From Betaproteobacteria bacterium (GTDB lineage: Bacteria; Pseudomonadota; Gammaproteobacteria; Burkholderiales; Eutrophovitaceae): 64,000 nucleotides of DNA. The DNA lies in NCBI GenBank assembly GCA_020346185.1, contig CP070775.1:2509042-2573041 (forward strand), written 5' to 3'. The notes beneath the pieces were generated by a model that saw only the letters and a list, made by a program, of their open reading frames with translations, made no database searches and was not told the DNA's origin. The position numbers and the translations under genes are program-made. Shown here one piece after another: positions 19,707 through 24,693 of this stretch (position 1 is its first letter; the number at the start of each line of letters is the position of its first letter).

Positions 19707-20384
19707 CTAGCACTTTCTTCCAATTAGGGTGGAGCCCGAGAAAATCAGGCAAGGCTGAAGTGGAAACACGTGTGGCCCTCGTTCCAGCACAGCCGTCTCA
19801 GCAAGCTGTTCGATTTGCAGCAAGGACGGATTATCACGGCGTACCCAGCCAAGCAGTTCACTGACGACTGCCTCGTCAACGACAGGGCGCCACAAAAGTG
19901 GTTCGGTCTTGCCGTGGCAACTACCGTAGCAGCGCGAACCCGGTACTTCCCATCGCGAACCCTGCGCGCGAAGCAACATGTACATGGCTTTCGCCTCAGG
20001 CTCGTTGACGCCTTCAGCCATGCTCGCTTCCAGAAACATGAGCTGAGCCTCGTCCCACGGTTGCTTCATTTCCTGAGTGGCATGGTCATACACAATCGAC
20101 GCCTTGCGGAAGCCGCCGTAGAACGGTTGCCCGAGCAAGTCGCGAAACAACGGTGGCATGCCGCGCCCCTTGAGGACGTGCCCCCCCGGAACCTCCCACG
20201 TCCTGCCTTTCGCTTGCTGATAGGCGAAAGGTTCCACCAGCCGCATGGTCGGCACGAAGGGATCGTCGAGCCATTCGACCACAACGCGGCCCTTGAACGA
20301 CCCATGATCGATACCCTCAGCTTCGGCAGCAAGCGCGCCAGTCGAAAACGCCAATACCGAGACGATCATCAGGAGCTTGTTCAT
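19707..20384 (-). CDS. Array copy 4: secreted DUF1353-like protein with CX3CH motif
   Basis: 225 aa from ATG 20384, directly before the signal peptide 'LLMIVSVLAFSTGALAA'; a longer frame upstream lacks support. Domain: 'GRVVVEWLDDPFVPTMRLV' at 32-50, the DUF1353 core 'WEVPGGHVLKGRGMPPLF' at 63-80, 'KASIVYDHA' at 94-102 and 'WDEAQLMFLEASMAEGV' to about 126. The C-terminal extension has Cys152, Cys156 and His157 ('RCYGSCHGK'), then 'LLWRPVVD', 'LLGWVRRDNPS' and 'GPHVF'. After GPHVF the tail diverges from its sisters. It is the last of four tandem paralogs. The CX3CH could be a non-canonical heme c site or a metal site; the function is not known. Confidence 0.8.
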   Translation of the reverse strand: MNKLLMIVSVLAFSTGALAAEAEGIDHGSFKGRVVVEWLDDPFVPTMRLVEPFAYQQAKGRTWEVPGGHVLKGRGMPPLFRDLLGQPFYGGFRKASIVYDHATQEMKQPWDEAQLMFLEASMAEGVNEPEAKAMYMLLRAQGSRWEVPGSRCYGSCHGKTEPLLWRPVVDEAVVSELLGWVRRDNPSLLQIEQLAETAVLERGPHVFPLQPCLIFSGSTLIGRKC

Positions 20385-20483
20385 GCAGGCTTCGTTTTTG
20401 GTTTGAGCTGTGGCATATACGCCGTCGCGATGGCCAATCCTATCACCTATGCAAGTTCGGCGGATCATACGTGTATGCCATCA

Positions 20484-21130
20484 TCACTGCTCCAGAATAG
20501 TGTGGCTCCGCCCAATCTTTTGCGGGCTGTCGTCGAGGATGACTTCACCGACCTTCTGCACCATTTCATTGAACGGCGAATCTTCCAATCGAACCCAACC
20601 AACGCGAGACCTTCGTCTTCGTCAACCCTCCGGCTCCACTCAAGGTTGGCATCACGAGGATGGCAGCGCCCGCAACAAATACGGTCTCGACGTACCGAAC
20701 AGCGTAATCCAGTTGCGATGATCAACATGTAAATGACTTTGGCTTCAACGGGCACAACGCCTTCGGTTATCGCTCCTTCGTAGAGCCAGCTTTGCACTTC
20801 TTCCCACAATCGTTGTTTGTGCCTCATGGCCCACTCTCGGATAAGCGTGGTCTCTCGGAAAGCGCTCTCGAGTCAATGACGCATCAATTGCACGACCAGT
20901 TCGGTCAATCATCGTCCATCCACTGCAGCTTCCGCCGAAACAAGCCAGCTTGTGTGACCTGTCTCATGAAACGCGAACTGCTTGACCATCGAGTTCAATA
21001 CAGAAGGGGCGTGGAGTCATTCGACGATCAACTTGCCGCCGACGAGACCTTTCGACACTTTTTCGAAGTCAACTAATATGACTCAAGCCAACCATACGAC
21101 ACTCACGAGAAGAAACAGAATCAGCTTCAT
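20484..21130 (-). pseudogene. Array copy 3: decayed DUF1353-like/CX3CH gene
   Basis: Reading from ATG 21130 (preceded by GAGGGTGG) a complete paralog can be followed. It has the signal peptide 'MKLILFLLVSVVWLA', then 'GGKLIVE', 'FAFHETGHTSWLVSAEAAVDGR', 'LESAFRETTLIREWAM', 'AITEGVVPVEAKVIYML' and the motif 'ICCGRCHPRD'. Four in-frame TGA codons interrupt it, at 21083-21085, 21017-21019, 20909-20911 and 20873-20875. A single-base frameshift near 20595 moves the tail 'VGWVRLEDSPFNEMVQKVGE' to a neighbouring frame, ending at TGA 20484. The line-up with the intact copies is continuous from signal peptide to C-terminus, so this is a dead copy, not chance similarity. Confidence 0.85.
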
Positions 21131-21248
21131 CCACCCTCTATCCCGAAGATAAAAGGTACAAGCCAAGTACCAACGGCCAGCCAATACGCCGGTCGGCGCT
21201 ATTTCCAGCGCTGTGCTTCAGGGACCGAATTTGCCGGCGCGTGCATGA

Positions 21249-21968
21249 TTACCGAAAATTGCCGAATATGTGCGGCCCCTTCTCAATAATGGCTGCGCTA
21301 GCGCGTTGGTCAATCGCATCCAATTTCGGATTCTCAGCCCGCACCCACCCCAGAAGCGCCACAAGCTTTTCATGATCGACCCGTGGACGCCATTCCAGTT
21401 CCTCTTCGCTTACATGGCAGCGAGTGAAGCAACTGCTTGAACCATGCAGTGCCCAGCGGGACCCTGAAGCACTTAGCACTGTGTACATCACCTTGGCCTC
21501 CTCCGGTGCAATGCCTTCCGTGACAGCCGCCTCGTAGAACATCCTCTGCGCATCCTCCCACGATCTGGTTTTCATCTTCACCGCATACTCATAGCTGATC
21601 GCAGTCTTGGGAAATTCACTCTCCAACGGATGGCCAAACAACTGGACGAATAACGTCGGCACCGAGCGCCCATCGAGGATCGTGTTCGGCGGCGTCTCCC
21701 AGACCTCACCGATGGCCTGTCGAAATCGCAATTCGCCGATGAGCTTGAACTCGGCAACAAAAGGATCATCATCGAGCCGTTCCAGTCCGGCTTCCCCATC
21801 GAAGCTGCCGATGACCGGCTCGGCTGTATCGGCAGCGCTTGCGCCAAGCGACAAAACCAACACATCGATGCCAGCTATCGCCATCATCAAAGCAGCTGTT
21901 CCGAAAAGTTGTCTCAGGTGGCAGCTCCTGTTCAAACGTGGCAAGGCACGCCGACGACCAACACGCAA
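21249..21968 (-). CDS. Array copy 2: secreted DUF1353-like protein with CX3CH motif
   Basis: 239 aa if started at TTG 21968, six bases after the stop of copy 1. The start is uncertain, since the signal-peptide-like run 'LMMAIAGIDVLVLSLGASAA' begins near residue 27 and an ATG lies there. The mature domain has 'GLERLDDDPFVAEFKLIGEL', 'WETPPNTILDGRSVPTLF', 'TAISYEYA', 'WEDAQRMFYEAAVTEGIAPE' and 'AKVMYTVL'. The extension has Cys180, Cys184 and His185 ('SCFTRCHVSE'), then 'LEWRPRVDHEK', 'LLGWVRAENP' and the closing 'GPHIFG'. Close spacing to copy 1 suggests one transcript. Confidence 0.8.
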   Translation of the reverse strand: MRVGRRRALPRLNRSCHLRQLFGTAALMMAIAGIDVLVLSLGASAADTAEPVIGSFDGEAGLERLDDDPFVAEFKLIGELRFRQAIGEVWETPPNTILDGRSVPTLFVQLFGHPLESEFPKTAISYEYAVKMKTRSWEDAQRMFYEAAVTEGIAPEEAKVMYTVLSASGSRWALHGSSSCFTRCHVSEEELEWRPRVDHEKLVALLGWVRAENPKLDAIDQRASAAIIEKGPHIFGNFR

Positions 21969-21974
21969 GTCAGT

Positions 21975-22634
21975 CTAGCGGGCATGCCCGAAAATATGCG
22001 GCCCGGGATGAAGAATTACGTCACCCACGCGCTGCTGAATGTCGTGTATTGTAGGGTCCTCGTCGCGCACCCAGCTTATCAGGCCGACAACCGGTTCATC
22101 GTCGACCAGTGGCCGCCATACCAACTCGGCATCGCCAGTATGGTGACACTGGTTGAAGCAGGAACTTTCGCCACGCACGACCCAGCGCGGCCCCGTTGCA
22201 TTGAGCAGCAGATACATCACCTTGGCTTCAATGGGCAGGATGCCCTCAATGATACTGCCTTCTAAGAACATCTTCTGTGCCTCGTGCCACGGCTTCGACT
22301 GCTGTTTTGCAGCATGGTCATAAACGACCGCTGTCTGGCGAAAACCTCCCTCGAAAGGGTGCCCCAACAATCGCACGAAAAGCGGTGACATGGAACGGCC
22401 GTCAACAACGCTGCCGGCCGGAACCGGCCAGATCTTGCCGTCTGCCTGGGTAAAGGAGAAACTTTCGACCAGCCGCATCGACGCAACGAACTCGTTGTCG
22501 TCGATCCACTCGAGTATTATCCGGCCGTCGAAGCGTGCCTCTTGAGCGGCAAATAGCGCCCCGCTGCAGAGCGCCACGATCCACAACAGGGTCACCGATC
22601 GGGTTACGAAATTACCGCGTATGCCGCGCTTCAT
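21975..22634 (-). CDS. Array copy 1: secreted DUF1353-like protein with CX3CH motif
   Basis: 219 aa, ATG with SD GGAGATG. Signal peptide 'VTLLWIVALCSGALFAA' (residues 14-30). Core: 'GRIILEWIDDNEFVASMRLV' (37-56), the DUF1353 signature 'WPVPAGSVVDGRSMSPLF' (69-86), 'GGFRQTAVVYDHA' (96-108), 'WHEAQKMFLEGSIIEGI' and 'EAKVMYLLLNATGPRWVV'. Extension: Cys159, Cys163, His164 ('SCFNQCHHTG'), 'LVWRPLVDDE', 'LISWVRDEDP', 'GPHIFG'. DUF1353 proteins are usually shorter and not secreted, so the signal peptide plus Cys/His extension is unusual. It is promoter-proximal in the array and divergent from nothing; ettA follows on the same strand upstream. Confidence 0.82.
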   Translation of the reverse strand: MKRGIRGNFVTRSVTLLWIVALCSGALFAAQEARFDGRIILEWIDDNEFVASMRLVESFSFTQADGKIWPVPAGSVVDGRSMSPLFVRLLGHPFEGGFRQTAVVYDHAAKQQSKPWHEAQKMFLEGSIIEGILPIEAKVMYLLLNATGPRWVVRGESSCFNQCHHTGDAELVWRPLVDDEPVVGLISWVRDEDPTIHDIQQRVGDVILHPGPHIFGHAR

Positions 22635-22684: not shown

Positions 22685-24349
22685 TCAAATCTTCAGCGGT
22701 TTGTAACGAATCCGTTTTGGCCGCGCCGCTTCTTCGCCAAGGCGCCTCCTCTTGTCCGCTTCGTACTCCTGATAGTTACCGACAAAGAACTCGACGTGCG
22801 AATCGCCTTCAAAGGCAAGAATGTGCGTCGCGATACGGTCGAGAAACCAGCGGTCGTGCGAAATAACCAGAACTGAACCGGCAAATTCAAGCAACGCGTC
22901 TTCAAGTGCGCGCAATGTCTCAACGTCGAGATCGTTGGATGGTTCGTCCAGAAGCAGTACGTTCCCACCTTCGATCAGCGTTTTGGCCAGATGCAAACGT
23001 CCACGCTCACCGCCGGAGAGATTGCCAACGGTCTTTTGCTGGTCAGCGCCTTTGAAGTTGAATCGGCCCAGATAGGCGCGTGACGGCACGTCGAACTTAC
23101 CGACGGTAAGAACATCCTGCCCGTTGGATACCTCCTCCCATACCGTTTTGTCTTTCGACAAGGCGTCACGCATCTGATCGACCGACACGATCCTTGCCGT
23201 TGGTCCGATGACGATGTCACCACTATCGGCCTGTTCCCGACCAGTGATCATGCGAAACAGCGTCGATTTACCCACGCCGTTTGGTCCGATGATGCCGATA
23301 ATCGCACCCGGTGGAATATGCAGTGACAAATTGTCGATCAGCAAGCGATCGCCAAATCCCTTTGAAACGTTCTTCAGCTCAATCACCTGGTCACCGAGCC
23401 GCTCTGCGACCGGGATGAAAATTTCCTGCGTCTCGTTGCGTTTCTGGTGCTCATGGGACGACAGCTCTTCGAAGCGGGCGATGCGTGCCTTGCTCTTGGC
23501 CTGTCGTGCTTTGGGGTTGGCGCGGACCCATTCGAGCTCTTTTTTTATTGTCCTGATACGCGCCGATTCCTGCTTCTCCTCCATCTCGAGGCGCTTTTCC
23601 TTCTGGTCCAGCCAGGACGAATAATTTCCCTTCCAGGGAATACCATGCCCGCGATCGAGTTCCAGAATCCACTCGGCGGCGTTATCGAGAAAATATCGGT
23701 CGTGGGTTACCGCAACCACGGTTCCGGGAAAGCGCTGCAGGAATTGCTCAATCCACTCGACACTTTCTGCATCCAAATGGTTGGTTGGCTCATCGAGCAA
23801 CAGCATGTCGGGCCGGGACAATAACAAGCGACACAGCGCCACCCGGCGCTTTTCGCCGCCGGAGAGGTTACCGACAGTCGCATCCCACGGCGGCAATCGC
23901 AGTGCGTCCGCAGCAATCTCCAGTTGATGCTCCATGTCCGAACCACTGGCTGCCAGCACCGCTTCGTACTTCGCCTGCTCCTCGGCAAGTTTGTCGAAAT
24001 CAGCATCAGGTTCGGCATAGGCCGCATAGATCTCGTCCAATTTGTGCTTTGCCTGCACCACTTCGCCCATACCCTGCTCGACTGCCTCACGCACCGTCTG
24101 GCTGTCATCGAGTTGCGGCTCCTGAGGCAAATAACCGACGCGGATGTTGGGCATGGGAACCGCCTCGCCGTCGAAATCCTTGTCCTCACCGGCCATGATG
24201 CGCAGCAGGCTGGACTTACCCGAGCCATTCAGCCCGAGCACGCCGATTTTTGCCCCCGGGAAAAAGGACAGGGAAATATCCTTGAGAATGACGCGCTTCG
24301 GCGGGACCATTTTCCCCACCCGCATCATCGCATAAACATACTGAGCCAT
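22685..24349 (-). CDS. ettA: ABC-F energy-dependent translational throttle protein EttA
   Basis: 555 aa from ATG 24349 ('MAQYVYAMMRVGKMVPPKR', the usual EttA start); the 38 extra residues of the open frame upstream are not family-like. Two ABC ATPase domains on one chain without membrane segments: Walker A 'GLNGSGKSSLL' and 'GPNGVGKSTLF', signatures 'NLSGGEKRRVAL' and 'NLSGGERGRLHL', Walker B 'MLLLDEPTNHLD' and 'VLLLDEPSNDLD'. The linker holds the arm and 'NPKARQAKSKARI'. It binds the ribosomal E site and gates early elongation by ADP/ATP ratio. Housekeeping gene; the array downstream on the same strand is 50 bp away. Confidence 0.96.
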   Translation of the reverse strand: MAQYVYAMMRVGKMVPPKRVILKDISLSFFPGAKIGVLGLNGSGKSSLLRIMAGEDKDFDGEAVPMPNIRVGYLPQEPQLDDSQTVREAVEQGMGEVVQAKHKLDEIYAAYAEPDADFDKLAEEQAKYEAVLAASGSDMEHQLEIAADALRLPPWDATVGNLSGGEKRRVALCRLLLSRPDMLLLDEPTNHLDAESVEWIEQFLQRFPGTVVAVTHDRYFLDNAAEWILELDRGHGIPWKGNYSSWLDQKEKRLEMEEKQESARIRTIKKELEWVRANPKARQAKSKARIARFEELSSHEHQKRNETQEIFIPVAERLGDQVIELKNVSKGFGDRLLIDNLSLHIPPGAIIGIIGPNGVGKSTLFRMITGREQADSGDIVIGPTARIVSVDQMRDALSKDKTVWEEVSNGQDVLTVGKFDVPSRAYLGRFNFKGADQQKTVGNLSGGERGRLHLAKTLIEGGNVLLLDEPSNDLDVETLRALEDALLEFAGSVLVISHDRWFLDRIATHILAFEGDSHVEFFVGNYQEYEADKRRRLGEEAARPKRIRYKPLKI

Positions 24350-24693
24350 GCTCGATCGCTTTGCTAACCAATCAAAAATCAAATAATGTGTGCTGCAAGC
24401 GTAGTGCCGACACCATGTAAACGGGATAACAACTGGCCGCTCGACAAACCACGCCCTTGCCACCTATGCCATCAGAGATGGCCGACCATCGTAGTCAAGC
24501 GTTTGATCTGGCCAACCTGCTCCGAGCGAACGATCCGCAGTGACTGTTACGTTCGATAGCACTCCGTTGTCTATTTTGTGCAAATCGCTGCATGCCATAA
24601 ATCCACAGCCGCACCGCAAGAAAAGGGGCAGGAGCGAATATAAAAGGGGACTGGCTGATCCGCGGAATCGCTTCCAGAGAAACGCTTTCCGAG

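Follow-up and report, generated by a model that had tools for sequence, protein, structure and literature searches.

Why should a bacterium keep several exported DUF1353-like proteins encoded side by side, and what, if anything, is bound at the C-x3-C-H motif that they share? The question is raised by a 64,000-nucleotide stretch of a betaproteobacterial genome of the order Burkholderiales (contig CP070775.1 of assembly GCA_020346185.1, positions 2,509,042 to 2,573,041; hereafter the window). An earlier note, made from its sequence, had described a tandem row of such paralogues with a CX3CH extension and had read them as a new family of periplasmic heme- or metal-binding proteins expanded by local duplication.

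Results

Organization of the array

The row described in the earlier note is borne out as three intact genes and one decayed copy, all on the minus strand. It is bounded on one side by an ABC-F (EttA-like) ATPase gene (22685..24463, minus strand), which lies directly upstream of P1 with a gap of about 50 bp, and on the other by an unrelated SDR/EamA pair. P1 (21975..22634), the first gene of the row, encodes an exported DUF1353-CX3CH protein of 219 aa, with its C-x3-C-H (CFNQCH) at 22143..22160 and its GPH at 21996..22004. P2 (21249..21968) encodes a second such protein, of 239 aa when read from a TTG; its true start may instead be an ATG near 21887, and its CFTRCH and GPH motifs lie at 21414..21431 and 21270..21278. 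P3, the third (19707..20468), probably starts at the ATG at 20384, yielding 225 aa, and its orthologue in genome G003 starts at the equivalent ATG; its motifs are CYGSCH (19914..19931) and GPH (19770..19778). The three genes were identified as open reading frames with a Pfam match, and the motifs were located by alignment.

The three proteins share 43-49% identity and a common layout, in which a hydrophobic signal sequence ending in A-x-A (assigned by inspection) is followed by the DUF1353 core and by a C-terminal extension of about 70-80 residues. This extension contains the C-x3-C-H, an LxWRPxVD segment, a WVR helix and GPHxF, and both Cys, the His, WRPxVD and GPHxF all align among the paralogues. 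The P3 type has in its tail (window 19710-19770) an extra Cys pair, C-x2-[FYD]-SG...C, which the P1 and P2 types do not carry. Comparison of the window genome with G003 yields dN/dS ratios of 0.14 for P1, 0.18 for P2 and 0.075 for P3, against 0.03 for ettA, and by these ratios P1, P2 and P3 are working genes under purifying selection. Long antisense reading frames on the plus strand (19770-20732, 21607-21978 and 21909-22265) lie opposite the genes and are seen again in relatives; they are probably codon-bias shadows rather than genes.

The decayed copy, detected with the family profile between P2 and P3 (20591..21112, minus strand), contains four in-frame TGA codons and is followed by a frameshift. 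Its nearest neighbor on the tree is the middle gene of G002, in what is a weak placement. The survival of Cys and His in this dead copy, advanced in the earlier note as a sign of selection, applies to the first motif, retained as CCGRCH, and not to GPH, which now reads SPQ, while WRP has become WSR. A dead copy is in itself no proof of selection on these residues; the case for it comes from the intact homologues, through their invariance and dN/dS values of about 0.08 to 0.18. At the same site, G001 has a fourth copy (L070 6440-7213) that is broken by frameshifts only and keeps both CYGRCH and GPH; sequencing error and recent decay cannot be told apart in this case.

A DUF1353 core without its phospholipase site

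The three intact proteins match DUF1353 (PF07087) with scores of 37.8, 32.5 and 47.1 bits, against a gathering cut-off of 22.5. The AlphaFold2 model of P3 (m662611734c27; pLDDT 84, pTM 0.81) has phage and viral DUF1353 proteins as the top structural matches of its core (E 1e-6, rmsd 2.6 over 114 columns), and the model thus indicates that the DUF1353 fold is kept in P3. The CX3CH loop and the GPH segment are modeled with low pLDDT, and a PDB search with the whole model and with the extension alone, itself a weak model (pLDDT 69.8), listed no match.

The earlier note held that DUF1353 has no established function, a statement now outdated by the demonstration that TtaP, itself a DUF1353 protein, acts as a phospholipase A2, its catalytic triad consisting of a His, the Asp beside it and, 15 residues further along, a dyad Asp (PMC11525133). 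At the triad positions, P1 and P3 present Y/D/Q and P2 presents Y/E/Q. Not one CX3CH protein in the alignment has the complete triad, and most have Tyr, Phe or Arg in place of the catalytic His and mostly Gln, His, Arg or Ala in place of the dyad Asp, whereas the triad is intact in ordinary DUF1353 proteins from this order (L005, L008, L009 and L014). Judging from these substitutions, the CX3CH family appears to have lost the phospholipase activity of DUF1353. On the tree, the catalytic His has disappeared at least three times, from the large clade that includes the window genes, from the second copies found in genus g2 and from L075/L077, and CX3CH was kept every time; in one g2 second copy (L092) no DUF1353 match is left, yet CX3CH and GPH are present. 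Since the triad has gone at least three times and L092 has left DUF1353 altogether while CX3CH and GPH persist, our most secure conclusion is that the functional centre has moved to the extension, and that selection preserves the extension and not the old active site.

Exported DUF1353 proteins also occur elsewhere, for instance on rhizobial plasmids. Those on alphaproteobacterial plasmids (L115:2899-3555, L116:2884-3885, L117:1938-2621 and L119:1833-2840) retain HD, and their core is followed at once by Cys pairs or Cys-rich stretches whose spacings differ from x3; in some of them, as judged by eye, the dyad Asp position is a His.

Conservation of the Cys and His residues

Alignment of 41 members, with 40 rows scored, shows C180, C184 and H185 (P3 ORF numbering) to be invariant in 40/40 rows and the His of GPH to be retained in 39/40, the exception being L089, which is without GPH. 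The free loss of Cys and His among homologues, set out beforehand in the earlier note as the outcome that would count against it, did not occur. The spacing is x3 in every intact member and never that of CXXCH. The CARCH of L102, the one member that departs from the invariant pattern and does have CXXCH spacing, was considered as a natural heme variant and left out, since the gene carries an in-frame stop.

Distribution and origin

A family profile built from 21 members matches 24 of the 399 genomes of the order. The form with both CX3CH and GPH is found in 20 of these, while in the other four the match is either to an ordinary exported DUF1353 protein or to the intermediate L089. All 41 relatives gathered fall within one order (Betaproteobacteria/Burkholderiales), the named records that bear them being betaproteobacterial metagenome genomes, and the extension profile, run against 369 class genomes and a phylum sample of 398, finds no bearer other than the window's own genome. 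Viral contigs and phage records are likewise without any relative, and a phage origin was rejected. Given the absence of bearers from the class and phylum samples and from phages, on current evidence the CX3CH family is an invention at the level of the Burkholderiales.

Within the order, P3 clusters on the tree with genes from other bacterial families (f29, f39 and f23), whereas P1 and P2 form a separate clade with the first copies of the sister genus and are of types specific to the window organism's bacterial family. Hence the array is a mixture of ancient paralogues and not the product of a single recent duplication: local duplication accounts for part of its origin, but fails as a whole explanation because of the position of P3. 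Two further proposals were discarded. A gene neighborhood conserved throughout the CX3CH family was not found, the ABC-F neighbor being kept in bacterial family f1 only, and the apparent recoding of the g2 second copies was dismissed, as their internal-looking TAA codons are terminal stops.

Association with flavin-based redox systems

In bacterial family f29 (L078 and L079), a gap of 35 bp separates the CX3CH gene from a cytochrome b561/DUF4405-like gene downstream of it, and an FMN_bind gene comes next. The same order is found in family f23 (L081), where ApbE comes next; no ApbE was seen in the L078 and L079 clusters. Since L079 and L081 are close on the tree and L078 is nearly identical to L079, this linkage probably represents one ancestral arrangement in one subclade. 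The window genome also has an FMN_bind-ApbE-b561-like cassette (G000:C1 about 2390650-2392690; L154:5653-7686), unlinked to P1-P3. ApbE, FMN_bind and DUF4405-like cytochromes are the components of published extracytosolic electron-transfer systems (PMC8238504, PMC11334425), and flavinylated systems have been linked to iron reduction (PMC8238504).

Across the 399 genomes of the order, homologues of the FMN protein occur in 18/20 genomes with CX3CH against 42/379 others (Fisher 2e-14), a figure weakened by relatedness among the genomes; more trustworthy are the counts by genus (6/6 with CX3CH against 22/152 others, p 2e-5) and by family (p 0.011). The cassette is common in the Burkholderiales, the FMN protein being present in 60/399 genomes, and in two families it includes the CX3CH gene. 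On the strength of the b561-like/FMN_bind/ApbE operons and of this co-occurrence, the CX3CH proteins are probably periplasmic redox proteins of an undescribed kind. The earlier note's proposal of a family that is distinct, exported and marked by a conserved CX3CH is upheld, and the binding of heme or of a redox metal is made likelier by the operon link and the co-occurrence.

Other redox genes were observed around family members. In genus g2 (L090-L096), the CX3CH second copies have a di-heme oxidoreductase (DHOR) and zinc-ribbon pair nearby, and a similar pair is found about 3 kb from the CX3CH gene in an unrelated bacterial family (L087:8522-9952); the di-heme oxidoreductase at these two places is a lead only. 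In G038, a CCP_MauG gene adjoins the FMN cassette (L163).

Discussion

Nature of the CX3CH site

The explanation that best accounts for the whole of these observations, to which we assign a probability of about 0.42, is that the CX3CH proteins are exported periplasmic redox proteins built on a DUF1353/PLA2-like scaffold. The two Cys would hold a covalent heme c, attached by the cytochrome c maturation machinery of the cell, with the adjacent His as an axial ligand and the His of GPH acting as second ligand or lining the pocket; electrons would be exchanged with the membrane cytochrome b561/DUF4405-like protein and the ApbE-flavinylated FMN_bind protein. Covalent heme c is favored because a His directly after the second Cys is a sign of heme c, and it is tentatively the likeliest chemistry at the site, at somewhat less than even odds. 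For ImcH and certain homologues of CymA, CX3CH has itself been reported as an atypical heme motif (PMC6295460). The window genome encodes CcmE, a CcmC-like match and CcsA/ResB-like genes beside multiheme cytochromes, and cytochrome c maturation genes are general in the order. On the other hand, the x3 spacing never gives way to the commoner CXXCH in an intact gene, P1-P3 match no cytochrome c model of Pfam or NCBIfam, and the extension matches no cytochrome model of Pfam. Also to be weighed against this explanation are the probable single origin of the operon linkage, the commonness of the FMN cassette in the order and the low pLDDT of the motif loop and GPH. In the rhizobial exported DUF1353 proteins the corresponding place holds Cys pairs that are spaced differently and lack the conserved CH, which suggests that the pair may go back to an ancestral disulfide and counts against heme.

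Regarding the maturation genes themselves, the multiheme cytochrome cluster adjoining the CcsA/ResB-like genes (G000:C1 about 200.9-206.3 kb; L112:8863-14328) includes one protein with 11 CXXCH, and in G084 (L120, contig C74) an ABC gene and two Cytochrom_C_asm matches, in an arrangement that resembles a ccm operon, are located within a few kb of one CX3CH copy. The absence of Ccm from G004 was considered as counter-evidence to heme and set aside, because the flanking selO is missing too and an assembly gap is likely.

The same residues might instead form a non-heme site, in which the two Cys, the adjacent His and the His of GPH bind copper, zinc or iron in a Sco-like periplasmic carrier or sensor. 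The strict x3 spacing and the near-invariant distal His (39/40) would fit such a site, and the redox neighbors would suit a copper or iron redox protein too, flavinylation being tied to iron reduction (PMC8238504). We nevertheless consider it unlikely, since the adjacency of Cys and His is typical of heme c and not of Sco, no thioredoxin-like or other metalloprotein was matched in the PDB (with the whole model or with the weak extension model, pLDDT 69.8), and no metal transport genes were seen adjoining CX3CH genes. Sco proteins carry CX3CP. It is also rather improbable that the Cys pair is purely structural, a disulfide made by DsbA to brace the extension of an exported PLA2-like binding protein in which the His would serve folding or lipid binding. 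The rhizobial and Tritonibacter exported DUF1353 proteins, with a Cys pair of other spacing right after the core, and the second Cys pair in the tail of P3-type members speak for a disulfide, but it leaves unexplained the invariant His after the second Cys (40 sequences) and GPH (39), as well as the redox operon link and the co-occurrence.

Very improbable, finally, is a surviving hydrolase whose altered site (Tyr-Asp-His, or His/Asp/His in relatives) acts on lipids or another ester with the extension as an aid to binding. In its favor are the phospholipase A2 activity of TtaP (PMC11525133) and a model that keeps the DUF1353 fold and resembles viral DUF1353 proteins (rmsd 2.6 over 114 columns). 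Against it, the catalytic His has in most members given way to Tyr, Phe or Arg, and the dyad Asp mostly to Gln, His, Arg or Ala; the catalytic His has been lost independently in at least three lineages, and one branch is beyond recognition as DUF1353.

Significance and comparison with known systems

DUF1353 is widespread and has one proven activity, that of phospholipase A2. A branch that repeatedly drops the active site and keeps a different Cys/His site in an added domain is a clear example of functional change in a scaffold. If that site holds heme, it would define a type of cytochrome missed by motif searches limited to CXXCH and provide an extra partner for flavin-based extracytosolic electron transfer. 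That the CX3CH proteins form a new class of c-type cytochromes, with heme at a strict CX3CH on a disarmed PLA2-like scaffold and in partnership with an ApbE-flavinylated system, is a possibility that we put forward with less than even confidence.

The proteins share with DUF1353 (PF07087) and TtaP an HMM match above cut-off and the predicted core fold, and differ from them in being exported, in the added CX3CH/GPH extension of about 80 residues and in the replacement of the catalytic His and dyad Asp. With the atypical CX3CH cytochromes, ImcH and some CymA homologues (PMC6295460), they have in common an exported CX3CH, Ccm genes and, in relatives, a redox context, whereas P1-P3 contain a single motif on an unrelated fold, without CXXCH, and their heme is putative. 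The CX3C and distal His are shared with the copper sites of Sco and CuA proteins, but in the CX3CH proteins a His directly follows the second Cys, and neither the whole model nor the weak model of the extension alone brought up a thioredoxin or cupredoxin fold in the PDB. The main texts describing extracytosolic flavinylation systems (PMC8238504, PMC11334425) make no mention of DUF1353; in f29 and f23 the CX3CH gene is operonic with the b561/DUF4405-like and FMN_bind genes of such systems, whereas the cassette of the window genome is present but unlinked to its CX3CH genes. Against this background, the CX3CH proteins constitute a branch of exported DUF1353 proteins that is confined to one order, has given up the phospholipase site, carries an invariant CX3CH/GPH signature and keeps company with flavin-based redox systems.
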